Positions 7,077-30,158 of a stretch of DNA of 64,000 bases are shown one piece after another. Position 1 is the first letter of the stretch; every line of letters starts with the position of its first letter. The DNA comes from Embleya hyalina (lineage in GTDB: Bacteria > Actinomycetota > Actinomycetes > Streptomycetales > Streptomycetaceae), in contig NZ_BIFH01000037.1 of assembly GCF_003967355.1 (NCBI RefSeq), positions 88,277 through 152,276 on the forward strand, written 5' to 3'. The translations under genes and the position numbers were made by a program. The notes under the pieces are model-generated. The model did not search any database and was not told the DNA's origin. It saw only the letters and a list, made by a program, of their open reading frames with translations.

Positions 7077-8440
7077 GTGACTCGGGTGAGTGGTTCGGGG
7101 GGATGTGCGGTGGCACTTCCGTTGGCGGTCGCGCAGGTTTTGGCGGAGGTGGACGACACCGGAGCGTGGCGGTTGTGGCCCGGGGATCCCTGGTGCATGG
7201 TGGCGCCGCCCAAGCACATTCGGCGGCGGCAGGGTTGGAAGTTGCATCTGTCGTCGACGGTTCGATCCGCGCCTCGGGTGTTGGAGAACGCGGCGCGGGT
7301 GTTGGTCGCGCACGGCTGTGCGTTCAAGTTCGCGGTGACGCCGAAGGCCGCCGCCGAGCTGAACGCGGTGCGGGCGGTGCGGGCGATGTCCGGCACGTTC
7401 ATCACCGCCTATCCGGCCGACGATGAGCAACTGGCCATGCTCAACGCCAAGTTGCATGCGGCGACCGAGGGGCTGCCGGGGCCGGCCATACTCTCCGATC
7501 GGCGGTATCGGCCGGGCAGCCCGGTCCACTACCGGTTCGGCTGCTTCGCCCACCCCCGGGAGTTGACCGACGAGGGCTTCTACGAGGGTCGCCTCCAGGC
7601 GCCCGACGGCACGTTCGTACCGGACCGACGCGAGGCCTGGTTCGCGGCTCGCGGACCGCTACCGGGTCCGGGAGGCGATCAACCACTCCAACCGGGGCGG
7701 TGTGTACCGGGCCCGGGACGAGCGCGCCGGCGAGGACGTGCTGATCAAGGAGGCCCGTCCGCACGTGGCTTCCGGGCCGGACGGGCGTGACGCCCGGGAC
7801 TGGCTTCGTTACGAGGCGAAGGAGCTCGAACGACTCGCGCCCGGCGGGATCGTGCCGGCGGTGCGCGAGGTGTTCGAGCAGGGTGGGCACGTCTTCCTCG
7901 TCGAGGACCTGATCGACGGCGACACGCTCCAGCGGTGGACCACGGACCGGTTGGAGCGCCGGCACGGCGACGACGGCCGGATCCCGGTCCCGGTCGCGTG
8001 GCAACTGGCCCGCGAGCTGGTGCGGTTGGTGGTACGCGTCCACGAGGAATCGTTGGTGCTACGGGACTTCAAGCCGAGCAACATGATGATCACGCCGCAG
8101 GGCCGGCCCGTGCTCGTGGACCTGGAGGGCGCGGTGCCGCGACGGTCGCGCGCCCGTGATCGGTACTCGTGGGTTCGGCGCGCCCGAATACCTCACCGTG
8201 AGCGGGTCCGCGCCGCCCGCGCCCGGTCCTCGCCACGGAAGACGCGCCGGCGCGGTCGACCGGCGAGCGGATCGCGGCGATCGTCGGCGCCGCGGCCCCC
8301 GGGATCCCGGCGCTCGACGCGTTGGCGCCGCTGGTCGTCGGACTCACCGCCGACGTCCCGGAGCGATGGACGTTGGCGCACGCCGCCGACTTCCTGCGGG
8401 CGGACCCGGACCCGGCCCGCCCACGCGCTCAGGCCGGGCC
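7077..8440 (+). pseudogene. Broken LanKC-type kinase (lanthipeptide synthetase-like), cyclase domain missing
   Basis: The frame from 7077 shows the N-terminal domain of RamC/LanKC-type proteins (GWKLHLSSTVRSAPRVLENA; GTFITAYPAD; SDRRYRPGSPVHYRFG). At about 7640-7655 the match moves to a second frame (ADRYRVREAINHSNRGGVYR, then IKEAR and the catalytic loop LRDFKPSNMM). At about 8140-8155 it moves to a third (VIGTRGFGAPEYL), and by about 8260 to a fourth stretch (RWTLAHAADFLRADP-like). The sequence then runs into the exporter gene with no lanthionine cyclase. Three frame changes plus the loss of a domain make this a pseudogene rather than a sequencing error. Its decayed end abuts the left edge of the biosynthetic operon. 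Confidence 0.75.
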
Positions 8441-9751
8441 GGCGGTTGCGCGGGTTGGGGTGTCGGTGGGGTCGGTGTCGGTCGGGGTCGGTGGTGTCGT
8501 GGGTGGCCGGTCCCGTACCGAGACCAGCACCAGCACGATCGACAACGCCGAGCCCACGGTCAGTACGGGCCACACCCCGTGTCCGAACCGGATGAACAGC
8601 CACCCGCCCACGACCGGTCCGACCGCCGCGCCCAGGCTCCAGGCGAAGTGGAAGCCGGCGATGTAGTGGCTCTTGAGCCGCGCCGGCCCGGCCACCACCG
8701 GATAGGCCGTGGTCGCCGGCCCGCCCAGGATCTCGCCGACGGACCAGATCAGCGTGCCGAGCAGGATCACGGCCGGGCCCAGCGGCAGGCCGTACACGCC
8801 CACGCCGACGCCCACCAGGACCAGCGCCCACGCCATGGTGAGCCGTTGCGACCACGCCTGCGCGTACTTGGTCATCAACAGTTCGAACGCGATGACGATG
8901 AAGCCGTTCAGCGACACGGCCAGGGTGTACCAGAAGATCGCCACGCCGCTGTCCTTGACGTCGAGCGGCAGCGTGGACAGGTACTGCACGTAGACGACCC
9001 CGAAGAAGAAGATCGCGGTCAGGTACAACATGTAGCGTCGATCGCGGATCATGGCCCGATACCCGCCGCGCCCGACCCGCTCGCCCTCCTCGCCGGCCTC
9101 CGGGTTCGTGTCGCCGGCCGCGCCCGGCTCGGCGGATCGCGGCGGCAGCGTCACCCACGCGAGGGCCGCGTAGCACAGCGCGACCGCCGCCTCGACCCAG
9201 AAGACCAGGGCGTAGCTGTGCCCGGCCAGGTTGTACAGCGCGAACCCGAACAGCGGCGCGACGGTGACGCCGAGGTTCAGCCCGAACCGGTACATCGCGA
9301 AGATCATCACCTGGCGGTTCGCCGGGGTGAGGTCGGACAGCAGGGTGGCCGACGCCGGACGGTACAACTGCCCGGCCATGCTGACCAGCGCCACCGCGAC
9401 CAGGATCAGCCCGAACGAGGGCAGGTACAGGATGGCCGCCAGCGGCACGCTCGCGCCGACCATGCTCACCACGCTCGCGTTGCGCGCGCCGAGCCGGATC
9501 GACAGCGCCCCGCCGAGCAGCACCCCCACGATCGCGCCGCCGCCGTACACGCCCAGCGCGAACGCCGCCTGCGCGTCCGAGTAGTCCCGCGAGGTCAGGA
9601 ACAACACCAGGAAGATGTTCAGGAAGGCCCCGAGGCGGTTGATGAACGCCCCGGTGAGCAGCGTCTTCGCCGGGAGCGAGGCCTGCCGGAAGGTGGCCAC
9701 CACGGTCGCCTCGTCGCTGTCGTGGCCCTTGTCGCGGGCGACGTCGACCAT
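8429..9751 (-). CDS. MFS exporter of the biosynthetic operon
   Basis: A 440-residue, 12-helix major facilitator protein with the loop motif GVYGGGAIVGVLLGG in helix 2 and the basic loop IRLGARN. It ends in an unusual Pro/Thr/Asp-rich tail. It is the last gene of the 16-gene operon, 5 bp after the ATP-grasp gene, and probably exports the product or gives self-resistance. The ATG at 9751 was chosen because the frame upstream runs into the preceding gene. Its stop touches the end of the LanKC-like pseudogene. Confidence 0.85.
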   Translation of the reverse strand: MVDVARDKGHDSDEATVVATFRQASLPAKTLLTGAFINRLGAFLNIFLVLFLTSRDYSDAQAAFALGVYGGGAIVGVLLGGALSIRLGARNASVVSMVGASVPLAAILYLPSFGLILVAVALVSMAGQLYRPASATLLSDLTPANRQVMIFAMYRFGLNLGVTVAPLFGFALYNLAGHSYALVFWVEAAVALCYAALAWVTLPPRSAEPGAAGDTNPEAGEEGERVGRGGYRAMIRDRRYMLYLTAIFFFGVVYVQYLSTLPLDVKDSGVAIFWYTLAVSLNGFIVIAFELLMTKYAQAWSQRLTMAWALVLVGVGVGVYGLPLGPAVILLGTLIWSVGEILGGPATTAYPVVAGPARLKSHYIAGFHFAWSLGAAVGPVVGGWLFIRFGHGVWPVLTVGSALSIVLVLVSVRDRPPTTPPTPTDTDPTDTPTRATAGPA

Positions 9752-9756
9752 GTCGG

Positions 9757-11091
9757 TCAGCCGACGACGACGCGGATGGCGGCCCGCACGCGCCGCTCCA
9801 GGGCATCGAGCCCGTCGGGCGTCGGGGCGTCGATGAAGAACGTGACGGACCGGTCGTCGGAGTCGGCGAGCGGGGTCAGCGCCGCGCCGCGCTCGCGCAG
9901 GACCAGCACGGCCCGCAGCGTCGGTTCCTCGCCCGGCCCGCCGGGCTTGATGTCGGGCCACACACCGCTGGCGCCGATCCACTCCGGCCGCACGTCCGGC
10001 CAGTCGAGGACCACATCCTCCAGCGTGCCGGGCCGGTGCTCCAGGTAGACCTGGCGGGCATAGCGGTACGGCCGGGGGTAGTTCGCCGGTTCGCCGAGCG
10101 CGACGCGCAGGATCTCCGGCTCCAGCGGTCGTCCGGTGGCCAGTTGATACAGCGTCAGCAGCCCGTCGCCGGGGGTGCGCGCCGCCACCTCGATCAGGCG
10201 CGGGCGACCGTCGTCGCCGACCCGCCACTCGGAGTGGGCGATGCCGTGCTCGAACGCGAGCGCCGCCACCAGTTCCCGGTTGGCGCCCAGGAGCGCCGCG
10301 CGCAGGTCCTCGCGCACGCTCGGCACGCTGTGCGCCATCTCCACGAAGGTGTGCGTGTGGCTGTCGGTGGTGACCTTGTCGGTCACCGAGGCGAAGACCA
10401 CCTCGCCGTCCTGGATCAGGCTCTCCACGGAGAACTCCGGGCCCGACACCTTCTCCTCGACGAGGACGACCTCGTGGTCGGGGTACGTCGCCAATCTCGC
10501 GCGCAGCCCCGCCACGTCCGCCACCGTCTCGACGCCGGAACTGGACGCGCGCGAGGCGGGTTTGACCACGGCCGGGAAACGCACCGCGTCCAGGTCGACC
10601 CGCTCGCGCTCGCCGGCGGGAATGGTCAGCGACGCCGGGCCCAGGCCCGGGGCGTACCAGCGCTGGAGGTACTTGCTGCGGCAGGCGCGGCTGGCGCGCA
10701 GCCCGGGCGAACGCACGCCGAGCCCGTCGGCGAGCAGGCCGGTCGGCTCGGCGAGGTAGTCGCCCACCGCGTAGGCGCCCACGATGGTGTACGCCTCGCG
10801 CCAGGCCGAGGTGCGCGCGATCGCGCCCGCGACGAACGCGCCCTGCACGGTGAAGTCGCCGGTGACATAGGCGATTTCGGTGATCTGCGCGGCGGGGTTG
10901 GAGGTGTCGGCCATGGCCTCCGTCGCCTGCGCGCGGTAGGACTCCGCGGTGATGACCAGGATCTTGAGCCCACGCCCGGAGAGTTCGGTCAGGTAGAGCG
11001 GATTGCGGCGGATCACGGGAAACGAGCCGGTCAGGATGAACGCCTGGGGCCGGTCGGCCGATTCCCGCGACTCGAACGGTGCCTGGGTCAT
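9757..11091 (-). CDS. ATP-grasp carboxylate-amine ligase
   Basis: A 444-residue protein of the ATP-grasp superfamily (biotin carboxylase/PurK-like). Visible parts are the nucleotide-binding strand VVKPASRASSSGVETV, the hinge VVLVEEKVSGPEFSVESLI, and the metal-binding strand RPRLIEVAARTPGDG. Family members activate a carboxylate as acyl phosphate and join it to an amine, thiol or hydroxyl group. In this operon it may form an amide or dipeptide bond late in the pathway, or attach an amino acid to the N-N building block (inference). The ATG at 11091 gives a normal N-terminal Rossmann-like domain. LYS9-like gene lies 131 bp upstream. Confidence 0.85.
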   Translation of the reverse strand: MTQAPFESRESADRPQAFILTGSFPVIRRNPLYLTELSGRGLKILVITAESYRAQATEAMADTSNPAAQITEIAYVTGDFTVQGAFVAGAIARTSAWREAYTIVGAYAVGDYLAEPTGLLADGLGVRSPGLRASRACRSKYLQRWYAPGLGPASLTIPAGERERVDLDAVRFPAVVKPASRASSSGVETVADVAGLRARLATYPDHEVVLVEEKVSGPEFSVESLIQDGEVVFASVTDKVTTDSHTHTFVEMAHSVPSVREDLRAALLGANRELVAALAFEHGIAHSEWRVGDDGRPRLIEVAARTPGDGLLTLYQLATGRPLEPEILRVALGEPANYPRPYRYARQVYLEHRPGTLEDVVLDWPDVRPEWIGASGVWPDIKPGGPGEEPTLRAVLVLRERGAALTPLADSDDRSVTFFIDAPTPDGLDALERRVRAAIRVVVG

Positions 11092-11222
11092 GGTTCCGTG
11101 TCCTCCTGGATCGGGCGGTTCGGGTGGTCCGGGTGGTTCGGGCGGGCCGGATGGTGCGGGACGGGCCGGAGCGAGGTGCCGAGTGGATCGCGGCGACGAG
11201 CGGTGCTGCGGTGCTGCGGCGC

Positions 11223-12383
11223 TCAGGCCGTCCGGTGCCGCTCGTCGAAGCGCGGCTCGACGCCGTTCGTGCTCAGGAACTCCAGCCACCGGCGGGCGTC
11301 CTCGGCACCCTGGGCGGCCTGGCGCAGGCCCGCGGGCACCCGTCCGGCGAGGATCTCGGTGATCCCGTACGCCAGCGGCAGGGACACGCACCGCGCCATC
11401 GCGCTCTCCTCGGCGTCGCCGACCGTGTCCAGGACGTATTCGCCGCGCCAGCCGGTGCCGTTCGCGCCCTCGATGTCGAGCGCGACGGCGAGGACGACGC
11501 GGTCCCGGTCGGCGTCGGTGGTCGGATACCGGGCGGCGAGTTCGTCGGCGAGGGCGGCGATGCGGTCGCCGTCGCCGGTGCGCACGGTGGTGAACACGTC
11601 CTCCCACGCCCGCGACCAGCCGTCCAGGCGCAGCGTGCCCCGGACGAACACGCGGGCCCGCCAGTCGGTCGGGAACGCGTACTGGGTGAGGTAGGGGAGG
11701 CTGTCGCGGTTGGGGTACGCCTCGAACGTCTCGCCGTCGAGCACGAGCGCGCGCGTCGCCGTCCACGGGAGGTCGACCACCTGCTCGACGTCGCCGTCGA
11801 GGTAGCGGGCCGGCGCGCGCAGCGCGTTCAACACCCCGCGCGGCGCCCAGCTGAAGCGGTAGCGGAACTCGTTGGATTCGGCGGGGACTCCGCCGCAGTA
11901 CGAGGTGAACTCGACGGTCGCCGGGCCGTCGCCGACGACCTCGCGGCCCCTGGCCACCAGCAGGTCGGCGAACAGATGGTCGATGCCCGGGTCCAGGCCC
12001 GCCTCGGTCAGCACGACCAGACCGGCCTTCGTCGCGGCCGGCGCCTCGGTGACGATCTCCTCGGACACGTAACTGCTGCACGCGAAGTGGGCGTCGCGCT
12101 CGATACACAACCGCAGCAGCGCGGGGTGTTCGCTCGCGGGCAACATCGACACGACGATGTCGCCCTTGTGCAACTCCGCGCTCAACCGGTCGAGATCGTA
12201 CGCGCGGGCGGCGGCGCGACCGGTCAGGTCCAACCGGGCCAGGCACCGCTCGGCCTTGGTGTCGGTACGGCCCCAGACCAGCAGCCGCTCGGCCCGGTCG
12301 GCCACCACCCGCACCCCGCTGCCGGTGGACAGGCCGGTGCCGATCCAGTGCACGGTTCCGCCGGCGGGTATCGCGTCAGACAT
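11223..12383 (-). CDS. Saccharopine reductase (LYS9)-like dehydrogenase
   Basis: A 386-residue protein with a degenerate N-terminal Rossmann segment (WIGTGLSTGSGVRVVAD), then DIVVSMLPASEHPALLRLCI, and the motif LVVLTEAGLDPGIDHLFADLL. That motif is typical of the saccharopine dehydrogenase/reductase (LYS9) and homospermidine synthase group. LYS9 interconverts saccharopine with 2-aminoadipate 6-semialdehyde (AASA) plus glutamate using NADP(H). It overlaps the LYS1-like gene by 8 bp, so the two fungal-type enzymes are translated together. I infer that they rebuild lysine from AASA left by hydrazinoacetate release. A direct role on the hydrazine lysine adduct, itself a saccharopine analogue, is the alternative. 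Confidence 0.8.
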   Translation of the reverse strand: MSDAIPAGGTVHWIGTGLSTGSGVRVVADRAERLLVWGRTDTKAERCLARLDLTGRAAARAYDLDRLSAELHKGDIVVSMLPASEHPALLRLCIERDAHFACSSYVSEEIVTEAPAATKAGLVVLTEAGLDPGIDHLFADLLVARGREVVGDGPATVEFTSYCGGVPAESNEFRYRFSWAPRGVLNALRAPARYLDGDVEQVVDLPWTATRALVLDGETFEAYPNRDSLPYLTQYAFPTDWRARVFVRGTLRLDGWSRAWEDVFTTVRTGDGDRIAALADELAARYPTTDADRDRVVLAVALDIEGANGTGWRGEYVLDTVGDAEESAMARCVSLPLAYGITEILAGRVPAGLRQAAQGAEDARRWLEFLSTNGVEPRFDERHRTA

Positions 12384-13461
12384 GGACGTTCTCCGTTTCC
12401 AGGCCGTTCGCCTCGCATGCCTCGCGGAAGACCCGCAGGCAGCGCTGCCAGGGTTGACCCGGTTCTCCCAGGGTCAGTAGATGGGGCGTCAGTTCGGCGG
12501 AGAAGGCGGTACTGGCCTCGCCGGGAAGCAGCGACGGCAGGTTGTCGATGGCGATCACCCCTAGCGGGTCACCGACATCGGTCAACGCGCGGACCGGTTC
12601 GCGCCAATCGGTGATGTCGTCGTAGACGGGCAACACATTGTTCCGGGACGTGACATCACAGGTGACGTCCACGATCAGGGACAGTCGCCGAGGCCCGGAC
12701 CGGAGCGACGCGAGGGTCACGAACGGCGGGGTCGGCGCGGTCACCAGCACGGCGTTGACGAGGATGTCGTGATCGAGCAGGGCCGCGTGATCCAGCGACC
12801 TGGTCTCGGCCACGTCCCAGCAGGTCGGCTCGATTCCGGCGACCGCCAGCGCGTCGCGCGCGCCGCGCCCGCACCGGCCCAGCGCCCCGATGACCAGCAC
12901 CCTCGGCCGCGCGCCGCTCGACGTCTCGCGCAACACCCGGTCCAGGTCCTCCTTCGGGCGCGGGCGCAGCGGCGGATCGAGCCGGCCCCGATGCCGGAGC
13001 ACCGCGAGCGCGGCGCCCACATATCCGGCCCAGTAGCCGAAAGCGGCCAGCCGCCGACCGTCCGCGTCGGTGAGGTATTCCAGGTCGAGCAGCGCGCCGG
13101 CGCCCGCCGTGAAGCGCCGCAGCAGCGCCCGGGCGTCGCGCTGGCCCTTGTACGCGTGGCCGAAGAACACGTGCCGGTGCCGCAACGCGGGCGGCTCGTC
13201 GGGGAGTTCCTTCAGGCCCACGACGAACTCCGCGGCTGGCGCGGCGCGCCAGCTCCCGGCGTCGGCGGCCACGCAACCGGCGTCGAGGTAGTCCCCGATC
13301 GGGAACACGCGCTGCGGCGAGTGCTCGACGGTGACCGTGATGCCGTGCGCGACGAGCCGCGCGGCGTCGGCCGGCACGATCGGCGCGCGCCGCTCGCTCT
13401 CGCGCGTCTCGTGCCGCATCGTGATCCCGACATCGGTCGTGCGCGGGCGGGGATCGGCCAT
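12376..13461 (-). CDS. Saccharopine dehydrogenase, lysine-forming (LYS1)-like
   Basis: A 361-residue protein of the alanine dehydrogenase/LYS1 family. It shows the N-terminal signature MRHETRESERRAPIVPADAA, the conserved HVFFGHAYKGQ (HAYK with the catalytic His/Lys pair), LLDLEYLTDADGRRLAAFG and the dinucleotide-binding segment VLVIGALGRCGRGARDA. LYS1 interconverts saccharopine with lysine and 2-oxoglutarate using NAD(H). Most bacteria make lysine by the diaminopimelate route and lack this enzyme, so its presence beside a LYS9-like gene in a lysine-consuming operon is telling. Length is close to fungal LYS1 (about 370). Confidence 0.87.
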   Translation of the reverse strand: MADPRPRTTDVGITMRHETRESERRAPIVPADAARLVAHGITVTVEHSPQRVFPIGDYLDAGCVAADAGSWRAAPAAEFVVGLKELPDEPPALRHRHVFFGHAYKGQRDARALLRRFTAGAGALLDLEYLTDADGRRLAAFGYWAGYVGAALAVLRHRGRLDPPLRPRPKEDLDRVLRETSSGARPRVLVIGALGRCGRGARDALAVAGIEPTCWDVAETRSLDHAALLDHDILVNAVLVTAPTPPFVTLASLRSGPRRLSLIVDVTCDVTSRNNVLPVYDDITDWREPVRALTDVGDPLGVIAIDNLPSLLPGEASTAFSAELTPHLLTLGEPGQPWQRCLRVFREACEANGLETENVHV

Positions 13462-13509
13462 GTGCTGTCCTCCGGTTTCCGGTTCGTGGTCGCGCGGGGG
13501 CGGGCCGAC

Positions 13510-20247: not shown

Positions 20248-20511
20248 TCAAGCCGCCTTTCCGGCGTGGCGCGACAGCGCCTCGGTGACGTCGCGCAGCG
20301 TGCTCATGGCCGCGACGTCGGGTTCGGTGAAACAGGCCAGGTCCACCCCGGCATCGTCGCAGGCGGCCATCAGGAACAAGACCTTGTTCAGTGAAGTCAA
20401 TCCGTACGTGCCGACCATGTCCTGGTCCGGGTCGATGTCCTGGGGGGCGACGTCGGACTCCAACACCCGGGCCAGGTTCGTCCTGGCCACGGTCTCAATC
20501 TCGGACTGCAT
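20248..20511 (-). CDS. Free-standing acyl carrier protein
   Basis: An 87-residue acidic helical protein with the phosphopantetheine site Ser40 in YGLTSLNKVLFL (DSL-like, here TSL). I chose the ATG at 20511; it overlaps the ligase gene end by 17 bp, so the pair is translationally coupled. It probably carries the acyl group activated by that ligase as a thioester while other operon enzymes act on it. Confidence 0.85.
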   Translation of the reverse strand: MQSEIETVARTNLARVLESDVAPQDIDPDQDMVGTYGLTSLNKVLFLMAACDDAGVDLACFTEPDVAAMSTLRDVTEALSRHAGKAA

Positions 20512-22045
20512 GGATGCCTCCCTCGGTGTCGTGGATCCGGGATCGGTAGGCGTCGAGAACGCGCCCACGCCTGGGCTTGAGCTGGGAGGTGAGCAGTCCG
20601 TTCCCGACACTGAACCGGGGACTGGCCACCACCACCGCGCGGATCTGCTCGTCGGGGCCGAACGCCGCGTTGGTAAGGGCCAGTTGCTCGGCGACGGCGC
20701 GCTCCAGGTCGGGTCCGCTCGCGTCCTCGGCCGGGGAGACCACGGCGACCAGCCGGGTCTGCGTCGGGCAGAACACCACACATTCCTCGATCGCGGGACT
20801 GGCCTTCATCCGCTCCTCCAGCGGCCGCACGACGACCTTGCGGCCGTTGTCCAGCACGATCACGTCGTCGGCGCGGCCGTGCACGAACAGGAAACCGTCC
20901 TCGTCCAAGTGGCCGATGTCGTTGGTACGCACCGTGCCGTCGGGGGCGAACACCCGCTCGGACACCCCGGGCGGCGCCTGCTCGTAACCCGCGCACACCG
21001 GGTGGTCGGCGTGTACGTGGATCACCCCTTCGGCGTCCAATATCACCCGTTTGCCCGGCAGTACGCGCCCGACGCTGCCCCGCCGATGCGCGCCGGGGTG
21101 GTTCTTGGTGACGATGCACGTCTCGTTGAGGCCGTAGCCCTCGAAGATCGGCAGTCCCGCGTCCTCGAAGAAGGCGAGCGTGCCGGTCGAGGCCGGCGCC
21201 GAACCGGTCCACAGATAGCGGATGCGGTCGCCGAACAACCGCCGCGCGCCGTCGCGGCGCGCCGTCGCCTCGTCCGTGTCGGCACCCGCGCCGCGCATCC
21301 GCGCCTCGATGTGCTTCCTGGCCGTCTCGAAGAACCCCGGCACGCCCATCACCACCGTCGGCCGGATCGCGCGCAGCGCCGGGAACGCGGCCTCGTAGGT
21401 GCAGATCGTGACGTCGTGGCCCCAACGCAGCGCGGAATACGTCCAGTAGCGCTGCTGGAGCACCGACAGCGGCAAAAACACGAGCAGGTTGTCCCCGTCG
21501 CCGTGCGCGAACATCTCCTGGACCGCGCGCAGATCGTCGTCGATGCTGCCGACGGACGCGGTGAGCGTCTTGGGCTCGCCGGTGCTGCCCGAGGTGAGCT
21601 TCAGCGACAACACGTCGTCGGGCGAGTAGACGACCGGCTCCAATACCCGGCCGTCGTCCGACAGGGCCGCCGCGACCTCGATCTCGGCGAGCGCCCTGCT
21701 GCCGGGGGCCCGCGCCGGGCCGTCGGTGAACAGCACACCCAGGCGGTAGCGTTCGCGCAGTCCGGTGTCGGTGTCGAACTTGGCCGGGTCGAAGCCCACC
21801 GTCACCGCGCCCAGGCGGATCGCCGCGAGATCGAGCAGCACCCATTCGAGGCCGTTCGCGGCGATGACACCGATCCGGTCGCCCCGCTCGATGCCCAGGT
21901 CGCGCAACCACAGCGCGAGGCGCCCGGCACGCGTGTGCAGTTCGGTCAGCTCCATCGTCCGGGTCCCGCCGAGCCGGAAGAAGGAGACGCGCCCGCCGGG
22001 GGAGGGGGCCCGGGAGGCGATGTGGTTGATCACCGAGTCGCTCAC
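20495..22045 (-). CDS. AMP-forming acyl-ACP/acyl-CoA ligase
   Basis: A 516-residue ANL-superfamily ligase of the FadD/long-chain type. Motifs are LTSGSTGEPKTLT (P-loop), EGYGLNETCIVTK, TNDIGHLDEDGFLFVHGRADD, and NGLLTSQLKPRRGRV holding the C-terminal catalytic Lys. It forms an acyl-adenylate and transfers it to a thiol, here most likely the ACP encoded next to it. The substrate could be hydrazinoacetate or its N-acyl form, as in triacsin, or a fatty acid. The GTG start overlaps the NRPS stop (GTGA, 4 bp). Confidence 0.85.
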   Translation of the reverse strand: MSDSVINHIASRAPSPGGRVSFFRLGGTRTMELTELHTRAGRLALWLRDLGIERGDRIGVIAANGLEWVLLDLAAIRLGAVTVGFDPAKFDTDTGLRERYRLGVLFTDGPARAPGSRALAEIEVAAALSDDGRVLEPVVYSPDDVLSLKLTSGSTGEPKTLTASVGSIDDDLRAVQEMFAHGDGDNLLVFLPLSVLQQRYWTYSALRWGHDVTICTYEAAFPALRAIRPTVVMGVPGFFETARKHIEARMRGAGADTDEATARRDGARRLFGDRIRYLWTGSAPASTGTLAFFEDAGLPIFEGYGLNETCIVTKNHPGAHRRGSVGRVLPGKRVILDAEGVIHVHADHPVCAGYEQAPPGVSERVFAPDGTVRTNDIGHLDEDGFLFVHGRADDVIVLDNGRKVVVRPLEERMKASPAIEECVVFCPTQTRLVAVVSPAEDASGPDLERAVAEQLALTNAAFGPDEQIRAVVVASPRFSVGNGLLTSQLKPRRGRVLDAYRSRIHDTEGGIHAVRD

Positions 22046-25000
22046 GGCGTGCTCGCCCCCGCCCCGGTGCGCTCGGCCAGGCCGCGTTCGATGTGCGCGG
22101 CCATCGTGCGGATCGTGTCCACCTCCGGCAGGCGGTCCAGCGTGATGGTCAGACCGAACCGTTTGCGCACCCCGGCCAGGATGCGCGCGGCCACCAGCGA
22201 GTCGCCGCCCAGGTCGTACAGCGGGCGCGTGACGTCCAGGTCGACGTCCGCGACGCGCAGCGGTTTGGCCCACAACCCGGCGACCACCAGCTCCAGTTCC
22301 GAATCGGCGGCGGTGGGCGCGGTCGAGGCCGGCCCGGCCGCCTCGGCGGCGGCCGCGAGCCCGGCCCGGTCGACCTTGCCGTTGCGGGTCAACGGCAGCG
22401 CGGCGTGCCAGTACACCGCGGCCGGGATCATGTACTGCGGCAGATGTTCGCGCAGCGCGGCGCGTACCGCCTCCACGTCCGGGCGTTCGTCGCCGGCGGG
22501 GACCAGATGGGCGACCAGCCGATCGCCCCGCGCGCCGGGCTGCCGGGAGACCACCGCGCGTTCCACGGCGGACAGCGCGACCAGTCGGGTCTCCACCTCG
22601 CCGGCCTCGATGCGGTAGCCGTTCACCTTGATCTGGAAGTCACCCCGACCGAGGATGTCGATCTCGCCGTCCGGCAGGTAGCGGCCCAAATCCCCGGTCC
22701 GGTACAGGCGTTCACCGCGTTCCGGATCGAGCACGAAGCGCGCGGCGGTCAACTCCGGGTCGTCCCAGTAGCCCCGGGCCAGACCCACCCCGGCGGCCCA
22801 GATCTCGCCGGTGACCCCGTCGGGCACGTCGCACCCGAACTCGTCGAGCAGGTAGGCCCGGTTGTTCGCGTTGGGCCGGCCGTAGGGGATGCTGCGCGAG
22901 CCGTCCTCGTCCGGGCCGATCGGGTGCGACACGTTCCAGATCGTGGTCTCCGTCGGCCCGCCCAACGAGACGATCCGCGCGTCCGGCACGAGCTTGCGCA
23001 GGTCCTGCGGCAACGTCGGCGGGATACGGTCGCCGCTCATCATCACCAGGCGCAGCGTGTCCAGCGCGTCCGTACCCTCCGCCGCCTGGTCGCGCAGCAG
23101 CGACACGATCGCCGGCACCGAGTTCCACACGCTCACGCGCGCCTCGGCGCACAACGACAACCAGTGCGCGGGATCGGCCGCGCGGTCCGCGTCCGGCAAC
23201 ACCACGGCCGCCCCGGCGCACAGGGCGCCGAAGACGTCGTAGACGGACAGGTCGAAGTTGAAGGCGCTGATGCCGAAGAATCGGTCCGTCGGCCCGATGC
23301 CGAAGCGCGTGTTGCAGTCGGCGACCACGTTGGCCACACTCCCGCGAGCGACCATGACGCCCTTGGGCTCGCCCGTGGTCCCCGACGTGTACAGCACGTA
23401 CGCCAGATGGTCGTCGTTGCTCGCACCGGGCACCGGACGCGGATCGGGCACCGGTCCCGGCGGCAGCGGGCGGCCGACGTCGAGCACGAGGACCTCGCGT
23501 CCCGCCTCGGCGCCCGCCCGCGCGTCGTTGGTCAACACCACCCGCGCCCGGCCGTTGTCCAGCATGTACGCGCGCCGCGCCGGCGGGAGCGCGGCGTCGA
23601 CGGGCAGGTACGCGGCCCCGGCGAGCATCGTCGCGAGGATGCCGACGACCTGCTCGGGCCCACGCCCCATCACCAGCCCGACCAACTCGTCCGGGACCAC
23701 GTCGTGGGCGCGCAACCAGGCGGCGGCGTGTGCCGCGTGCCCGTACACCTGCGCGTAGCTGAGCGAGGCACCCGCGGTCAGCACCGCCGGCGCGTCCGGC
23801 GCACGCTCCACGTGCGCCAGGAACGCGTCGATCAACATGCCCGGCGCGGGCGGCGCCGTCGCCGTCGCGTTGGCCGTCCGGCGGCGTTCGCGCTGCGCCT
23901 CGGGCAGCAGGTCGAACGTCCTCGCCGACCACGACTCCTCGGCGAGCAGCGCCTCCAGCAGGTGCTGGTAGCCCGATACCAGATCCGGTACCAGACCGTC
24001 CGGGAACAGCCCGTCGACACTGTCGAACTGCACCACGACGCCGCCGTGTTGCTCGAACGTGGAGACGTCGAGCCACACCTGCGGGGTCTGACTGGAGGTG
24101 TACACCTCCGGCCCGAACACCTCCAGGGCCGAGCCGTCGACGTCGGCGTGCGCGTAGCCGAGCGCGCTGTTGAACGTGTACGGCATCGGCCCGCGCGCCG
24201 CGCCGTCGCCGCGTCGGGCCGCCTCGCGCAACACCTCGATGCCGGTGAAATGCCGGTTGTCCAACCCCCGGCGCAGCCCGGCCTGCAACGCCCGGGCCCG
24301 CTCGACGAAGGGCAGGCGTCGGTCCACCTCGATCTCGACGAGCATCGTCTCGCAGAAGTTGCCGACGGCCTCGAAGATGCGCGGGTGGATCGGCGGACGG
24401 TTCGCCACCGTGGTGTTGATCGTGAACCGCGAACCGGCGCCCCAGGCCGCGAGGGTGTCCGCGTAGACCGCGAACAGCACCGCGGAGGGGGTGAGTCCGG
24501 CCGCCGCCGCCCGGGCCTTGAGCGCGCTCCACCGCGGCTCGGTCAGCCGGGCGAAGCGCGCCGAGAAGCGTGGTGCCACGATCGAGGAGGGGCTGGTACG
24601 CAGGGGCAGGTCCGGGGCGGGCGCGAGGTCGTCGAGCCGCTCCATCCAATACCCGCGGGCCCGCTTCGCCGGGGCCCGGGTACGCGCGGCCTCGACCGCG
24701 GCCACGTACGCCTCGAAGGACGCCTCCTCCGCCGGGCTTTCGGCGGCGTCCTCGCCCGCGTCGTAGGCCCGGCGCCAGTCGCGGAAGAACAGGAACATGG
24801 CGATCGCGTCCATGACCAGGCCGTCGTGGTCGACGTGCAGCACCATCCGATCGTCCGCCAGCACGGTGACGTCGACCGCCACGAGCGGCGCGCGGTCGGC
24901 GGGCAGCACACGGTGCGAGCGCGACGCGCGTTCGGCGCGCAGGTGTTCGTGCCGCGTCGCCTCGGACGCGTCGCGCAGGTCCATGCGCCCGACGCGCACC

Positions 25001-25383
25001 TCGACCTCGGCCTCCCGCACCTGTCGGCCGTCGGGGGTGAAGCGGGTGCGCAACGCGTCGTGGCGCGCCACCACCGCGCGCAGCGCGGCCTCCAGGCGGT
25101 CGAGGTCCCAGGCACCCTCGATCTCGTGGTAGACGTGACTGGCCACGTTGCCCATCTCGACGTGCTCGCCCCGCCCGACCAGGTAGCTGCGTTGCAGGTC
25201 GGTCATCGCGAAGCCGTCCGGCGGGTCCAGATGGGCGACCAGGGCCGCCTTGTGCTCCTTGATCAGGCGCAGCAGTTCGGGATCCATCCGTTCCCGGGGA
25301 CCCTGCAGGCGCAGATCGGCTCCGGAGGCCGAGATGGTCAGCCCTCTGGCCTCGATCTCGCGGAGAACCCCGAGGTGCTTCAC
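22042..25383 (-). CDS. NRPS module: TubC docking - Cy (cyclization) - A (predicted Cys) - PCP
   Basis: A 1113-residue single module. Residues 1-52 (KHLGVLREIEARG) are a TubC-type N-terminal docking domain. Residues about 58-480 match Cy domains: FAMTDLQRSYLVGR, D187-x4-D192-x2-A195 (the DxxxxDxxS motif with Ser changed to Ala), and SQTPQVWLDVS. The A domain (YTSGTTGEPKGVM, FDLSVYD, GGPTETTIW, NGYRIEAGEVE) gives the ten-residue code D-L-Y-N-M-S-L-I-W-K by alignment to PheA, a known cysteine code. The PCP has LGGDSL near the end. Cy plus Cys normally yields a thiazoline. No oxidase, epimerase or thioesterase domain is present. GTG start at 25383 overlaps the upstream stop (GTGA). Confidence 0.9.
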   Translation of the reverse strand: MKHLGVLREIEARGLTISASGADLRLQGPRERMDPELLRLIKEHKAALVAHLDPPDGFAMTDLQRSYLVGRGEHVEMGNVASHVYHEIEGAWDLDRLEAALRAVVARHDALRTRFTPDGRQVREAEVEVRVGRMDLRDASEATRHEHLRAERASRSHRVLPADRAPLVAVDVTVLADDRMVLHVDHDGLVMDAIAMFLFFRDWRRAYDAGEDAAESPAEEASFEAYVAAVEAARTRAPAKRARGYWMERLDDLAPAPDLPLRTSPSSIVAPRFSARFARLTEPRWSALKARAAAAGLTPSAVLFAVYADTLAAWGAGSRFTINTTVANRPPIHPRIFEAVGNFCETMLVEIEVDRRLPFVERARALQAGLRRGLDNRHFTGIEVLREAARRGDGAARGPMPYTFNSALGYAHADVDGSALEVFGPEVYTSSQTPQVWLDVSTFEQHGGVVVQFDSVDGLFPDGLVPDLVSGYQHLLEALLAEESWSARTFDLLPEAQRERRRTANATATAPPAPGMLIDAFLAHVERAPDAPAVLTAGASLSYAQVYGHAAHAAAWLRAHDVVPDELVGLVMGRGPEQVVGILATMLAGAAYLPVDAALPPARRAYMLDNGRARVVLTNDARAGAEAGREVLVLDVGRPLPPGPVPDPRPVPGASNDDHLAYVLYTSGTTGEPKGVMVARGSVANVVADCNTRFGIGPTDRFFGISAFNFDLSVYDVFGALCAGAAVVLPDADRAADPAHWLSLCAEARVSVWNSVPAIVSLLRDQAAEGTDALDTLRLVMMSGDRIPPTLPQDLRKLVPDARIVSLGGPTETTIWNVSHPIGPDEDGSRSIPYGRPNANNRAYLLDEFGCDVPDGVTGEIWAAGVGLARGYWDDPELTAARFVLDPERGERLYRTGDLGRYLPDGEIDILGRGDFQIKVNGYRIEAGEVETRLVALSAVERAVVSRQPGARGDRLVAHLVPAGDERPDVEAVRAALREHLPQYMIPAAVYWHAALPLTRNGKVDRAGLAAAAEAAGPASTAPTAADSELELVVAGLWAKPLRVADVDLDVTRPLYDLGGDSLVAARILAGVRKRFGLTITLDRLPEVDTIRTMAAHIERGLAERTGAGASTP

Positions 25384-27683
25384 GCCGGCACCCCCGTGCG
25401 TGCGGCGACGTCGTCCGGATCCAGGCCCTCGGCGATCAGCGCGCTCAGTTCGGCGACGGTGCGGGCGCCGAGCAGTTCCTCGATCGGCACGTCGGCGTCC
25501 ACCTGCTCGGTGAGTCGGTACTGCAGGGCGATCGCCTGGAGCGACGCCATGCCCAGCTGGATCAGCGAACGGTCGTGCACGGGCTCGTCGGCGGGCAACC
25601 GCAGGAGATCGCGCACCAGCGCGCTGAACCAGGGGAGCAGCGGCGGCGCCGGTCGGTCGGCGGTCGGGTCCGAGGATCGCGCGTCGGCCGTCCCGGGGAC
25701 GGCGAAGAACTCCCGACCGGCCAGGTCGACGGCGGTCCCGGCGGGCACCAGGTCGACCCGGGCGGGCCAGCGGGTGGGCGCGGGGATGCCGAGCGCGGCC
25801 GAGAGGCGATCCGCGAACCGGGGCATCACCGGGGCGCCGCACGTGGCGAGCAGTCGGGCGGCGGCCAGTTCGAGGGCGATCCCCGTGCGCGCCTCGTCCT
25901 TGAAGTCCGCCACGTCGGCGGCGGGGGCCTGGAGACGGGCGAAGGCGGTGACGTCGGTGACGATGCCGTCCAGCAGTTCGGCCGCGCGGTTGAGCGAGAA
26001 GCCGTCCTGTCCCAGGGCCCCGGTCAGCGCCGACCGGCGCGCCTCCAGGCGGGCCAGGAAGGCCGCGTGCTCGGGCCGCCAGACGCCGGCGTCGGGTGCC
26101 ACGCCGGCGTGCCGCTCGGCGACGCGCTCGCCCAGGTCGTTCAACCACCTCTGCCAGGTGCCGACCAGGGTGTCGCGGACGAAGGTCTCGTAGGTGTCGG
26201 GGGAGAAGCTGGTGCGCCGGCCCTCGGGGCGGGTCAGCGCGAGGTAGAAGCGGATCGAGTCGACCGTGCGGGGGTTCAGCACGTCCTTGCCCCAGATCGC
26301 GTGGCCGCGGCTGGTGGAGAACTTGCTGTCCTCCAGGAGGTAGAACTCGTTGATGTTGTAGTCGATGTCCGGCTGCCAGCGCGGATGCGCGACCCGATAC
26401 AGCGCCGGGATGAACATGGGGTGGAAGAAGCTGCCGTCCGAGCCCAGGAAGTGCACGATCTTCCAGTCGGGCGAGGGGGCGTCCGCGTCCCAGTCGCGGC
26501 CCAGGTCGCGGCCGAGTTCGCCGATGCCGTACAGGATGCTGAAGGCGTAGTCCAGCCAGGACCAGATCACCTGGCCCGGCACATCGGTCTCGGCGGGGGC
26601 GATGCCCCATTCGGCCACGTGCGTGACCGGGATGTGCAACTGCTCGCGGCGGCCCAGGCGTTCGGCCAGTTCCTTGACCGCCGCCGGGACCCGGCCGAGC
26701 CGGTGGTGGTCGGTGACCACCTTCCCGAACTCGTGCAGCGGGAAGGTGTAGCGCACCAGGGCCCGCTCGTGCGGAGGCGCGTCGCACGCCGCCGAGCGCG
26801 GCTCGATCAGGTCGGTGCACACGTTGGGTTCCAGGCACGTCTCGCAGATGTTGCCGCCGCTGTCGCCGTCGCACGTGGGGCAGCGGCCGGAGACCCCCGA
26901 CTCGTACAGGTATTCGCCGGTGTCGGCGGCGAACAGCGCGGCACTCTCGCGCGGCGCCACGGTTCCCGACGCGGTCAGTCGGGAGAAGAACGCCCGCAGC
27001 GCGGCCGGATAGGCGTCGTCGCGACTGGTCGCGGTGTACTGGTGGACGTCGATGTCCATCAGCTTCAGCGTGGCCAGGATCTCGGCGCTGTAGTGCGCGG
27101 CGGTCTGCGCCGGGGTGCGGCCCTCCCGACGGGCGGCGGCCACCACGTAGTTCTGGTAGTCGTCGCTGCCGGTGATGTGCCAGGCGTCGGCGCCGAGCAT
27201 GCGCTGGTGGCGCACGAACACGTCGGCGCCGAAGAACGGCCCCGACAGGTGGCCCAGATGCAGGTCGCCGTTGGGTGTGGGCGCGGAGGAGAAGACGAAC
27301 ACGGGACGGGTGCCGAACCCGCGGTGTCCGGTGTCGTGGGCGGCGTGCGTCGCCCGTTCGCCGTCGCGCCAGTACAGGCTGACGAACAGCAGGTCGGTGT
27401 CTCCCGTGTTCTCCACGGAGTGGGTCTCGAACGGTTCGAACTGGACCACGGTGGAGGCGGACACCGGATGGCGTTCGGCGTCCACGGTCAACTCCCCGGT
27501 GCCGGAGACGAACACCCATGTCTCCGTCTCGTCGTGCTGGTGCGCCTCCGAGCGCGCGCCGGGGGCGACACCGACCCAGGTCGCGCCGACACCCAGCCGC
27601 GTCGCGGAGCCCGCCTCCACGGCGGCCACGGCGACGCCGTCGGCGGCGTGGGGGGCGTCGGGGCGGTAGGTGCTGATCTTCAC
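25380..27683 (-). CDS. Hydrazine synthetase-like cupin/MetRS-like protein with fused C-terminal carrier domain
   Basis: A 767-residue protein. Residues about 1-115 are a cupin with G42-x5-H48-x-H50-x3-E54-x6-G61 and later H88-x3-N92. Residues about 125-640 resemble methionyl-tRNA synthetase: HLGH (142-145), a zinc knuckle C268/C271/C280/C283 and a KMSKS-like KFSTSRG (454-460). Spb40 in s56-p1 biosynthesis has this cupin-MetRS layout and joins N6-hydroxylysine to glycine through an N-N bond using ATP. Unlike the Spb40-type layout as I know it, residues about 675-760 form a carrier domain with Ser714 in LGMASLQAIAL. Its short tail runs to the NRPS start, whose product has a docking domain. Confidence 0.9.
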   Translation of the reverse strand: MKISTYRPDAPHAADGVAVAAVEAGSATRLGVGATWVGVAPGARSEAHQHDETETWVFVSGTGELTVDAERHPVSASTVVQFEPFETHSVENTGDTDLLFVSLYWRDGERATHAAHDTGHRGFGTRPVFVFSSAPTPNGDLHLGHLSGPFFGADVFVRHQRMLGADAWHITGSDDYQNYVVAAARREGRTPAQTAAHYSAEILATLKLMDIDVHQYTATSRDDAYPAALRAFFSRLTASGTVAPRESAALFAADTGEYLYESGVSGRCPTCDGDSGGNICETCLEPNVCTDLIEPRSAACDAPPHERALVRYTFPLHEFGKVVTDHHRLGRVPAAVKELAERLGRREQLHIPVTHVAEWGIAPAETDVPGQVIWSWLDYAFSILYGIGELGRDLGRDWDADAPSPDWKIVHFLGSDGSFFHPMFIPALYRVAHPRWQPDIDYNINEFYLLEDSKFSTSRGHAIWGKDVLNPRTVDSIRFYLALTRPEGRRTSFSPDTYETFVRDTLVGTWQRWLNDLGERVAERHAGVAPDAGVWRPEHAAFLARLEARRSALTGALGQDGFSLNRAAELLDGIVTDVTAFARLQAPAADVADFKDEARTGIALELAAARLLATCGAPVMPRFADRLSAALGIPAPTRWPARVDLVPAGTAVDLAGREFFAVPGTADARSSDPTADRPAPPLLPWFSALVRDLLRLPADEPVHDRSLIQLGMASLQAIALQYRLTEQVDADVPIEELLGARTVAELSALIAEGLDPDDVAARTGVPA

Positions 27684-27702
27684 GACGGCTCCTTCACTTC
27701 GG

Positions 27703-28809
27703 TCACGCGTGCGGAGGAATCGAGGACAGGTCCAGCAGATCCGCGGCCTCCGCCGCGATCGCCGGGGCGAGCCGATATCCGGACCCGTTGGCGGCGCCGG
27801 CGAAGACGACGCGGCCGTCGCCCAGCGCCCGCACCTGCGGTTCGCCGGTGGGGCTGTACGCGTCGCAGAACACCCGTCCCGAGACGCGGTGTTCGGCCAG
27901 CGCGGGGGCGTGGCGGCGCAGGCTCGCGCGCGCCTGGTCGACGTCGTCGGCGGACAGGCCGCCGGCCAGGTCGTCGGGATCGACGTCCCAGGTCGTACAG
28001 GTGTAGCTGAACAGCCAGTGCCCCGAGGCGTGCAGCGGCAGCAGGAAGGCGTCCTCGTCGTGGAAGACGACGGCCCGGTCGGTGCGGGTCGGAACCCGCT
28101 CGACGTGCAGCGCGACGATCTTCTTGACCCGGGCGCCGAGCGGGGCCAGCGACTCGCGCCAGGCGGGTTCGGCGAGCCAGGGTCCCGGGGCCAGCACGAC
28201 CCGATCCGCGGTCACCGTCTCCCCGGTGCCGAGGGCGAGTTCGACACCGCCCACGTCCGGCTCGCGGCCGGGGTCGGTGTGGCCGACGGCGCGCATCGTA
28301 TCCACGTGCACGCCCTCGCGCAGGGTCACCCGTGCCCGCAGTTCGCGGGTGAGGTCGCGCACCAGCGCGTAGACGTCGGCGTACTGGGCGCCCCGACACT
28401 CCCAGATCCGCGCGTGCTCGGGAAGTCGTAGATCGGGCGCGCCGGCTCGGTCCTCGGAAGGGTCGACGGGGGTCAACTCGGCGCTGTCGAGGTAGATCTC
28501 GTGCACGCGCGAGGCGTTCACGGGGGAGGCGACCACCGACATCGGGACCGCGTGAATCGGCAACTCGGGAGCGTTGTGCTTGAGTTCCGCGTAGTAGTCC
28601 TGGCTGTACGCCGTCATGCGCCGCACCCGCTCCGTCGCGCCGCGCGGACAGTGCAGTCCGGCCGACCGGCGGCTCGCGCCGGCACCGACGGTGTCCCGGT
28701 CCAGGAGCAGGACGGACGCCTCCGGCGCGCGGGCGACGATCTCCCGGGCGACCAGGCAGCCGACGATTCCGGCGCCGACGACCGCCACATCGGTGTGTTC
28801 CCGGTTCAC
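27703..28809 (-). CDS. FAD-dependent oxidase (DAO family), hydrazinoacetate-releasing type
   Basis: A 368-residue FAD protein of the D-amino-acid/glycine oxidase family. The dinucleotide site is VAVVGAGIVGCLVA at residues 8-21, followed by DTVGAGASRRSAGLHCPRG, and the C-terminal FAD segment is VVFAGAANGSGYRLAPAIA. In the s56-p1 and triacsin pathways the homologue oxidises the lysine-glycine hydrazine to release hydrazinoacetate and leave 2-aminoadipate 6-semialdehyde. Its place between the lysine hydroxylase and hydrazine synthetase genes supports the same role. GTG start overlaps the hydroxylase stop by 4 bp. Confidence 0.87.
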   Translation of the reverse strand: MNREHTDVAVVGAGIVGCLVAREIVARAPEASVLLLDRDTVGAGASRRSAGLHCPRGATERVRRMTAYSQDYYAELKHNAPELPIHAVPMSVVASPVNASRVHEIYLDSAELTPVDPSEDRAGAPDLRLPEHARIWECRGAQYADVYALVRDLTRELRARVTLREGVHVDTMRAVGHTDPGREPDVGGVELALGTGETVTADRVVLAPGPWLAEPAWRESLAPLGARVKKIVALHVERVPTRTDRAVVFHDEDAFLLPLHASGHWLFSYTCTTWDVDPDDLAGGLSADDVDQARASLRRHAPALAEHRVSGRVFCDAYSPTGEPQVRALGDGRVVFAGAANGSGYRLAPAIAAEAADLLDLSSIPPHA

Positions 28810-30158
28810 AGAGCGTCCAGGTCGTCGACGGGCGGTTTGGCGGACCACTCGACGAACGACGGCAATTGTTCGTCGGAGCCCACCCCCAGAAGCCGGTCGA
28901 GGATGCGCCGGCTGCGCCAGGCGGTCAGGCTCAGATTGGGGTCCGCCAGCCCGCGCTGACCGCGTGCCGCGTTCTGCATGAAGATGAGGCGGTCGCGGGG
29001 GCCGTCCCATTGCACGGCGAAATCCCGGTCGATGCGATACTCGTCGCCCTCGCGTTCCAGACGGCTCTCGATCGGCGCGAGGAATTCGGTCGACGCCGGA
29101 CGGAATCCGGTGGCCCACACGATGGTGTCCACATCCACGTACTCGACCACGTCCGGCCGGTCGTTGTGGCCCATCTCGATGGTCCACCCGCCGGACTCGT
29201 TCCCGCTCACGTCGGTGACCGCACGATTGGGCAGCAGCGCCAGCAGATCCTGCGTGCCCTCGATGAAGCGGTGCTCGTAGCAGCGCTGGTAGATGTCCCG
29301 CAACGTCGACTCGGAGATGCCGTCGCTGCTCAGCACATGACGACTGTTGAGCGACTCGCGAACCGCCCGGTCCACCCCGGCGAAATACTCCGAATAGCTG
29401 GGCGTGTAGTACTCGTTCGTGAACGGCGAGTCGTCGATGGGAAAGTAGTTCCCGCGCCGCGAGATCCAGGTGACACGCCGGGGCAGCTCCTTCGGCGCAC
29501 GGGATATCAGATCCAGAAACGCCTCGGCCCCGGACTGGCCGCCACCGACCACGGCGACCCGCTTTCCGGCAAGTCCGGGCCGTGTTCCGTCGATGAAATC
29601 GCTGACGTGGAACTGCGTGTCGCCGAGTTTGTCCCGGGCATGTGCGGGAACCCATGATCTGGTGCCCACGCCGACGCAGATGTTCTCCGCGGTGACGGTG
29701 CGCCTGCTGGTGTGCACGACGAACGAATCACGTACGTCGTCGAAATCCACGGCGACCACTTTTTCGCCGAAGACGATGTTCTCGTTGCGTCGGCTCGCCC
29801 ACTCCAGATAGTTCCTGAATTCCCGGCGGGGAACCGCGTCGTATTGGGCGTTGATGAAGTGGTAGATCTTGCCCTGCTCGTGCAGATACGAGAGGAAGGA
29901 AAACTCGTTGGTCGGGTCGGAGAGGATGACGAGATCCTTGAGCAACGACACCTGTAGCGACGCGCCGGGTATCTGCTGATTGTCGTGCCAACCGAATCTT
30001 TCCTTCTGGTCGAGAAAGAGGTTCGGTGTCTCCGAGCGCCCGTGCAGCAGTGACGCCAGGCTCAGGTTGGCGGGACCGACTCCGATGCCGACGCAGCGGT
30101 ACTGCGCCGATTGGGGTTCGCTGTTTCCCGAAACACGGTTTTCGACTGGTTTCCCCAC
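28806..30158 (-). CDS. L-lysine N6-hydroxylase (flavin N-monooxygenase)
   Basis: A 450-residue class B N-hydroxylating monooxygenase (IucD/SidA/PvdA type). FAD site GIGVGPANLSLASLL (about 24-38), the substrate-pocket stretch SLLKDLVILSDPTNEFSFLSYL, NADPH site VAVVGGGQSGAEAFLDL, and the C-terminal ATGFRP. It hydroxylates the side-chain amine of lysine using NADPH and O2. No siderophore synthetase is nearby; the hydrazine synthetase gene in the same operon makes lysine the likely substrate for N-N bond formation. It is the first gene of the 16-gene unit; the start is GTG and the Shine-Dalgarno match is weak. Confidence 0.9.
   Translation of the reverse strand: MGKPVENRVSGNSEPQSAQYRCVGIGVGPANLSLASLLHGRSETPNLFLDQKERFGWHDNQQIPGASLQVSLLKDLVILSDPTNEFSFLSYLHEQGKIYHFINAQYDAVPRREFRNYLEWASRRNENIVFGEKVVAVDFDDVRDSFVVHTSRRTVTAENICVGVGTRSWVPAHARDKLGDTQFHVSDFIDGTRPGLAGKRVAVVGGGQSGAEAFLDLISRAPKELPRRVTWISRRGNYFPIDDSPFTNEYYTPSYSEYFAGVDRAVRESLNSRHVLSSDGISESTLRDIYQRCYEHRFIEGTQDLLALLPNRAVTDVSGNESGGWTIEMGHNDRPDVVEYVDVDTIVWATGFRPASTEFLAPIESRLEREGDEYRIDRDFAVQWDGPRDRLIFMQNAARGQRGLADPNLSLTAWRSRRILDRLLGVGSDEQLPSFVEWSAKPPVDDLDAL

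Follow-up and report, generated by a model that had tools for sequence, protein, structure and literature searches.

Introduction

The azs cluster of Streptomyces fragilis, responsible for the antitumor compound azaserine, encodes a thioesterase (AzsB), an isocitrate lyase (AzsC), a KAS III-like enzyme (AzsD), an iron redox enzyme with a C-terminal heme-oxygenase-like domain (AzsE), two saccharopine dehydrogenases (AzsH and AzsI), an ATP-grasp protein (AzsJ), an MFS transporter (AzsK), AzsL, AzsM, the carrier domain-containing AzsN, a protein composed of heterocyclization (Cy), adenylation (A), and carrier protein (CP) domains (AzsO), AzsP, AzsQ, AzsS, and the C45-family protein AzsT (Shikai 2023, PMC10445470). 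The roles of AzsS, AzsP, AzsT, AzsF, AzsD, AzsO, and AzsB are known from biochemistry on azs homologues. The 2.5 kb separating azsE from azsI in canonical clusters contains azsF, encoding an acyl-CoA dehydrogenase that converts the hydrazine to a hydrazone, and azsG, encoding a cytochrome P450. The candidates for the diazo-forming oxidation are AzsE and AzsG; in vitro attempts failed to show oxidation (PMC10445470). Here, we analyze a 16-gene operon of the soil bacterium Embleya hyalina (genome of 12.05 Mb), located in a 64,000-nucleotide stretch of contig 37 (the window). All 16 genes have counterparts in the azs cluster. The operon is of the azaserine type but is not an azaserine cluster, since it belongs to a separate lineage lacking AzsF and AzsG. 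As judged from the sequence, its product is probably an azaserine relative whose precursor amino acid is not glycine.

The N-nitroglycine cluster of Streptomyces noursei (nng) resembles the Embleya operon in its hydrazinoacetate (HAA) enzyme trio, in its Cy-A-peptidyl carrier protein (PCP) module with the same A-domain code, and in its heme-oxygenase-like diiron oxidase (HDO), NngH. However, nng retains AzsF, a glycine-type pocket in the methionyl-tRNA synthetase (MetRS)-like domain, and P450s, including the required NngS, whereas the Embleya operon contains no P450. The triacsin, s56-p1, and diazoacetone (dob) pathways likewise combine a lysine hydroxylase, a DAO flavoenzyme, a cupin-MetRS protein, and succinyl masking (Tri29 to Tri31, DobB/C). 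They differ in using glycine, in the AzsF-type enzymes of tri and dob (Tri22 and DobM), and, for dob, in a type I polyketide synthase and a ferritin-like oxidase acting on its hydrazone. The MetRS domain is the gatekeeper of amino acid choice (Zhao et al., PMC8664883), and it also sets the amino acid in members of the same synthetase family that do not use glycine (PyrN, glutamate; Apy9, alanine; others, serine and tyrosine). None of the latter enzymes is described in the literature surveyed as belonging to an azs-type cluster or as being fused to a carrier domain. The azaserine analogue thrazarine is expected to be built from threonine and may be encoded by one of the azs-like clusters (Shikai 2023); if so built, it would call for a hydrazine synthetase with a non-glycine substrate within such a cluster.

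Results

Organization of the operon and azs counterparts

Gene calling based on codon usage identified exactly 16 genes, all on the minus strand, between position 8429 and approximately position 30158. In azs terms, the gene order is L-M-N-O-P-Q-S-T-B-C-D-E-I-H-J-K, as follows.

28806..30158, minus strand: AzsL-type lysine N6-hydroxylase (g23); PF13434, E value of 1.7e-93
27703..28809, minus strand: AzsM-type DAO flavoenzyme (g22), predicted to cleave the lysine C-epsilon-N bond; Pfam
25380..27683, minus strand: AzsN-type hydrazine synthetase (g21) with cupin, MetRS-like, and C-terminal carrier protein domains, putative pocket residues S133, A134, Y379, I383, and G417; Pfam and alignments
22042..25383, minus strand: AzsO-type nonribosomal peptide synthetase (NRPS; g20), docking-Cy-A-PCP, with DGLVMD, N405, D439, and A code DLYNMSLIWK; Pfam and alignments
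20495..22045, minus strand: AzsP-type AMP ligase (g19), predicted to load the succinyl-hydrazino acid onto the carrier protein; Pfam and AzsP homology
20248..20511, minus strand: AzsQ-type stand-alone carrier protein (g18); synteny and identity to AzsQ homologues, no Pfam match
19632..20246, minus strand: AzsS-type GNAT, predicted hydrazine succinyltransferase (g17); Pfam, function from AzsS/Tri31
18538..19635, minus strand: AzsT-type C45 peptidase, predicted desuccinylase (g16); Pfam, function from homologue work
17747..18535, minus strand: AzsB-type thioesterase, predicted to release the product (g15); Pfam, function from homologue work
16813..17676, minus strand: AzsC-type ICL/PEP-mutase family protein, proposed to supply succinate; Pfam and azs counterpart
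15899..16816, minus strand: AzsD-type KAS III-like acyl transferase (g13), clade-specific N114 and V119 flanking Cys118; Pfam and alignment
13510..15855, minus strand: AzsE-type two-domain protein (g12), N-terminal helical region and C-terminal HDO; Pfam and alignment
13462..13509, minus strand: E-I junction of 48 bp, site of azsF (acyl-CoA dehydrogenase) and azsG (P450) in canonical clusters; synteny
12376..13461, minus strand: AzsI-type LYS1-like dehydrogenase (g11), proposed lysine recycling; Pfam and synteny
11223..12383, minus strand: AzsH-type LYS9-like saccharopine dehydrogenase (g10), proposed lysine recycling; Pfam and synteny
9757..11091, minus strand: AzsJ-type ATP-grasp ligase; Pfam and synteny
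8429..9751, minus strand: AzsK-type MFS exporter (g8); Pfam and synteny

The start of g23 was placed at 30158 because the resulting 450-residue form includes the FAD motif GIGVGPANL and has PF13434 beginning at residue 20; the codon-usage start at 29951, which leaves this motif upstream, was rejected. Five stop/start overlaps of 4 bases (four GTGA and one ATGA), further overlaps of 8 and 17 bp, and gaps not exceeding 131 bp were found in the operon. Comparison with Embleya scabrispora gave dN/dS ratios of 0.09 to 0.33 for all 16 genes, indicating that purifying selection acts throughout and that the operon results neither from chance nor from decay. Gene calling, overlaps, and dN/dS thus agree with the single-strand, 16-gene operon proposed in the initial annotation of the window. 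Pfam matched each of the enzyme families named there, the families in the operon being lysine hydroxylase, DAO, cupin-MetRS, Condensation-A-PCP with a TubC docking domain, KAS III-like, C45/AAT, heme-oxygenase-like, saccharopine dehydrogenase, and MFS. That annotation omitted the PEP-mutase/ICL protein, the thioesterase, the GNAT, the AMP ligase, the stand-alone carrier protein, the ATP-grasp ligase, and the carrier domain of g21. Its "two-part" diiron oxidase corresponds to one 781-residue protein in which a helical N-terminal region precedes a C-terminal HDO domain.

A search for AzsO loci in 84,980 species genomes led to 38 loci, including those of S. fragilis (L085) and of S. noursei, a nitroglycine species (L078). 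Synteny analysis against ten related loci revealed a gene-for-gene azs match, with 50 to 68% identity between the genes of canonical azs-type clusters and those of the operon. The window contains the complete trio of lysine hydroxylase, DAO, and cupin-MetRS protein, the latter with the fused C-terminal carrier domain (residues 686 to 750) that is the hallmark of AzsN. Also present are the masking and loading set (AzsS, AzsP, AzsQ, and AzsT), the KAS III-like AzsD, the thioesterase AzsB, and an AzsO-type Cy-A-CP protein with the DxxxxD motif and a Thr-to-Asn replacement. The coupling of a lysine-dependent N-N-forming pathway to a Cy-A-PCP module is therefore supported, but the combination of this module with the KAS III-like enzyme, the C45 hydrolase, the diiron oxidase, and the LYS1/LYS9 enzymes, initially regarded as new, is that of the published azaserine cluster (PMC10445470). 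In comparison to the azaserine clusters of S. fragilis and Glycomyces harbinensis (azs/aza), which contain counterparts of all 16 genes, the window lacks AzsF and AzsG and displays an altered MetRS pocket, altered HDO surroundings, Asp instead of Asn in the Cy5 motif, and Tyr instead of Trp at A-code position 239. A literature search retrieved no paper linking Embleya to azaserine.

Absence of AzsF and AzsG

The main peculiarity of the operon, overlooked initially, is the precise absence of AzsF and AzsG. The 48-bp E-I junction is equally short in E. scabrispora and in a closely related Embleya (97% identity in g21). In Streptomyces sporangiiformans and Amycolatopsis rhizosphaerae, E is directly followed by I-H-J; in Streptomyces sp. 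MMG1121 (L111) and cf386 (L113), E is directly followed by J-K, the AzsH/AzsI lysine-recycling pair being also absent. The AzsF-less variant comprises seven species (three Embleya, three Streptomyces, and one Amycolatopsis). Genome-wide absence was judged from six-frame searches. In the seven variant genomes, the best AzsF matches reached 35 to 48% identity, and none was an orthologue; in the three Embleya genomes, AzsG orthologues were likewise not found, with best matches of about 31 to 32%. The AzsF paralogues of 47 to 48% identity also occur in genomes that retain AzsF. The AzsF-positive HAA-type clusters tested all have a linked AzsF, with 51 to 89% identity. No P450 was found among the genes of the operon or the window genes scanned, the counterpart of NngS being missing too.

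The variant clusters form one clade. They grouped together with clusters from metagenome-assembled genomes (MAGs) in the AzsO tree (SH-aLRT of 99), and the AzsN tree computed after removal of the diagnostic columns again recovered the two nested clades, supported at 97 and 98, with a single change to the variant state. The variant architecture has been maintained across Embleya, Streptomyces, and Amycolatopsis. Because the outgroup, a Bradyrhizobium cluster, carries AzsF, loss of this gene is the more economical interpretation.

The MAG clusters (L068, L069, L071, and L072; L115/L116) are sister to the variant clade and are also devoid of AzsF. For four of them (L068, L069, L071, and L072), no AzsF orthologue was found in the genomes, which may be incomplete; extra NRPS modules are visible in three of these four clusters. 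A palsa MAG has four more NRPS modules flanked by the azs genes, suggesting a hydrazine-containing peptide. The Bradyrhizobium cluster (Proteobacteria; L099:1-21527) is azs-like with a split orientation and lies far outside the actinomycetes.

Amino acid pocket of the hydrazine synthetase

A clade-specific difference was counted where all variants share a residue that no canonical homologue has, at positions with 90% or higher conservation among the canonical homologues. There were 24 such differences in the hydrazine synthetase, 17 in the diiron oxidase, 7 in AzsO, 4 in AzsP, and 2 each in AzsT and AzsS, as opposed to 1 in the lysine hydroxylase and none in DAO. The concentration of changes in the synthetase, the HDO, and AzsD, with almost none in the lysine hydroxylase and DAO, fits a changed amino acid-derived acyl group and an unchanged lysine side.

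The g21 protein, a putative zinc-cupin hydrazine synthetase by its Cupin_2 and MetRS domains and the motif HQHDETE, was compared with 33 glycine-type enzymes, and 16 of 20 clade-specific positions were found in the MetRS domain. Alignment with solved MetRS chains matched S133, A134, Y379, I383, and G417 of g21 with A12, L13, A256, Y260, and I297 of E. coli MetRS, which we take to be methionine-pocket residues. For L13, this assignment agrees with engineered MetRS studies. Changes thus affect 5 of the 10 methionine-pocket positions (P = 2e-6; 2.6e-4 when conditioned on conserved columns), and no pocket change was detected in five control clades. The residues concerned do not vary among the 33 glycine-type enzymes. 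The glycine-type motifs STPPTPNG, WPEMSYGF, and FGYDNSFYH of Spb40, Tri28, and AzsN are replaced by SSAPTPNG, WLDYAFSI, and LGSDGSFFH in g21. Since the glycine-type pocket is not conserved, an amino acid other than glycine is the more likely substrate, and a hydrazino acid other than the hydrazinoacetate initially predicted is the more likely product of this enzyme.

These observations bear on the possibility of an ordinary azaserine-like route starting with glycine, with AzsF replaced by a housekeeping acyl-CoA dehydrogenase encoded away from the cluster and with no need for the P450. Few changes have accumulated in the genes for succinylation, loading, and desuccinylation, many acyl-CoA dehydrogenases are encoded in the variant genomes, and the P450 gene nngJ of the nitroglycine cluster was not required in knockouts, as such a route would have it. 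It is nonetheless improbable, though the best surviving of the alternatives, in view of the altered pocket, of the lack of an AzsF orthologue in all seven variant genomes, and of the occurrence of their closest paralogues in genomes that have kept AzsF.

Diiron oxidase and KAS III-like enzyme

The proposed metal ligands of g12 (D547, E575, H585, E647, H675, and D679) are all intact. They conform to the HDO pattern E-x9-H ... E ... H-x3-D, which we take from SznF, with conservation of E575-x9-H585, E647, and H675-x3-D679. Nine of the 17 clade-specific positions are located at most 6 residues from the proposed ligands (P = 4e-6; 6e-4 to 2e-3 when conditioned). A Foldseek search with g12 placed HrmI and SznF near the top, with E values of 0.15 or worse, and was given no weight. 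In the AzsD-type g13 protein, two of four clade-specific changes (N114 and V119) flank Cys118.

Cy and A domains of the NRPS

The initial annotation predicted that g20 activates cysteine and cyclizes it, which would lead to a hydrazinyl-thiazoline. In keeping with such chemistry, the solved structures closest to the Cy domain of g20, by both sequence and fold, are heterocyclization domains (EpoB, BmdB, and yersiniabactin), the A code (DLYNMSLIWK) resembles a cysteine code, and an aspartate is restored in the variant clade only (Asp439, where AzsO has Asn447). Among AzsO homologues, only the seven variants have the Cy5 Asp and an additional HVDHDG motif, apart from a Cy5 Asp in L098, which has no other azs gene. 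However, Asn405 replaces the catalytic Thr that shapes cyclodehydration, as in all azs-type members, including the ester-forming AzsO, and no AzsO mutant, N447D included, gave a cyclized product. The A code is identical to that of the AzsO homologue of S. noursei, whose nitroglycine pathway loads serine, so that it cannot separate cysteine from serine; the azaserine AzsO was likewise predicted to use cysteine and uses serine (PMC10445470). The A code was accordingly dropped as proof of cysteine activation. A thiazoline is thus doubtful, slightly more so than the glycine route, despite the restored Asp439.

Streptomyces sp. NBC_01549 (L098:10001-11299) encodes an isolated AzsO-like Cy domain that has the normal Thr (FTS); no further azs gene is present within 10 kb.

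Decay of an azaserine cluster that has lost two genes and no longer makes its product would account for the two missing canonical genes and for the additional lack of AzsH/AzsI in MMG1121 and cf386, but it is very unlikely given 16 open reading frames under purifying selection, intact catalytic motifs, and a constant architecture in three genera.

Neighboring genes

Four of the seven variant clusters have a linked gene for a second ELFV (Leu/Val/Phe-type) dehydrogenase, a paralogue that differs from the housekeeping copy; none of the canonical azs loci examined was found to have it. It may suit the supply of a side-chain-bearing amino acid substrate.

L112:9855-10922, L111:7949-9013, L113:9119-10150, and L067:196-1230: ELFV dehydrogenase paralogues

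An EamA exporter (L112:6264-7145) and an AAA/STAND-type regulator (L112:7117-9858) adjoin Streptomyces and Amycolatopsis variant clusters. The EamA transporter was rejected as a clade-specific gene because it also flanks canonical clusters. Directly upstream of the Embleya operon lie a two-component system and a divergent MMPL transporter (window positions 31461-36194); their location next to the operon is conserved in G004, the closest Embleya, and not in E. scabrispora. Positions 50331-52907 of the window encode a large protein with an AAA/STAND-type domain and a WD40 propeller, typical of actinomycete signaling proteins.

Discussion

We propose, with a probability of roughly 0.6, that this azaserine-type lineage combines lysine with an amino acid other than glycine to form an alpha-hydrazino acid, which is joined to serine and oxidized at nitrogen by the HDO only. 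Lysine would be hydroxylated at N6 by g23, and g21 would combine N6-hydroxylysine with an amino acid, probably one other than glycine. The DAO flavoenzyme g22 would then release the alpha-hydrazino acid and leave 2-aminoadipate semialdehyde. In line with a published review, the LYS9/LYS1 pair (g10/g11) probably recycles this semialdehyde to lysine; Shikai et al. proposed a lysine-supply role for the azs pair, and tri23/tri24 knockouts had no effect on triacsin production (PMC10445470). By analogy with work on azs homologues, g17 would mask the hydrazine by succinylation, g19 would load it onto the carrier protein g18, the C45 hydrolase g16 would unmask it, and the KAS III-like g13 would transfer the acyl group to the carrier domain of g21. 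The Cy-A-PCP protein g20 would couple it to serine, or less likely to cysteine, through an ester or an amide, prior to release by the thioesterase g15 and export by the MFS protein g8. Because neither a dehydrogenase nor a P450 is present, the HDO g12 would be the only N-oxidizing enzyme left for the acyl group, probably acting directly on the hydrazine to reach the nitroso, diazo, or another N-oxide level. The sequences establish the gene identities, their order, the missing genes, the clade, and the altered active sites; from these we infer that the substrate is not glycine, that the HDO oxidizes unaided, that lysine is recycled, and what class the product belongs to.

Several observations weigh against this proposal. 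A distant dehydrogenase may act in trans. The pocket argument depends on homology to MetRS and on a residue list that was applied after the changes had been seen. The AlphaFold model of g12 is poor in the HDO region (mean pLDDT of 64.9), making the active-site geometry low in confidence. The ELFV gene is absent from the vicinity of the Embleya clusters. Finally, Asn447 is needed for ester bond formation by S. fragilis AzsO, although it is not universal (Shikai), and the N447D mutant, which is in the same state as g20, was inactive for ester formation. Thus, either different chemistry operates in this lineage, or other changes compensate for the aspartate.

More tentatively, the clade could build an alpha-diazo (thrazarine-like) or N-nitroso serine ester out of lysine and an amino acid with a side chain, the free hydrazine being oxidized by the HDO unaided. 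If true, this would provide a new amino acid specificity for hydrazine synthetases and a dehydrogenase-free, P450-free route to diazo or N-nitroso compounds. Thrazarine is a product candidate for the clade, and no more; no link between this compound and Embleya was found.

To pass a published filter for the mining of diazo clusters, a cluster had to contain PF02770, an acyl-CoA dehydrogenase domain that AzsF is expected to carry (PMC13061610); the variant clade would therefore probably be left out. Since this clade has kept AzsE while AzsF and AzsG are both absent, AzsE presumably works without them. The clade is thus a natural experiment that separates AzsE from AzsF and AzsG and bears on the diazo-forming step. 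In addition, it draws attention to a hydrazine synthetase that is fused to a carrier domain and probably uses a substrate other than glycine, and it offers a genomic lead for thrazarine-like compounds.

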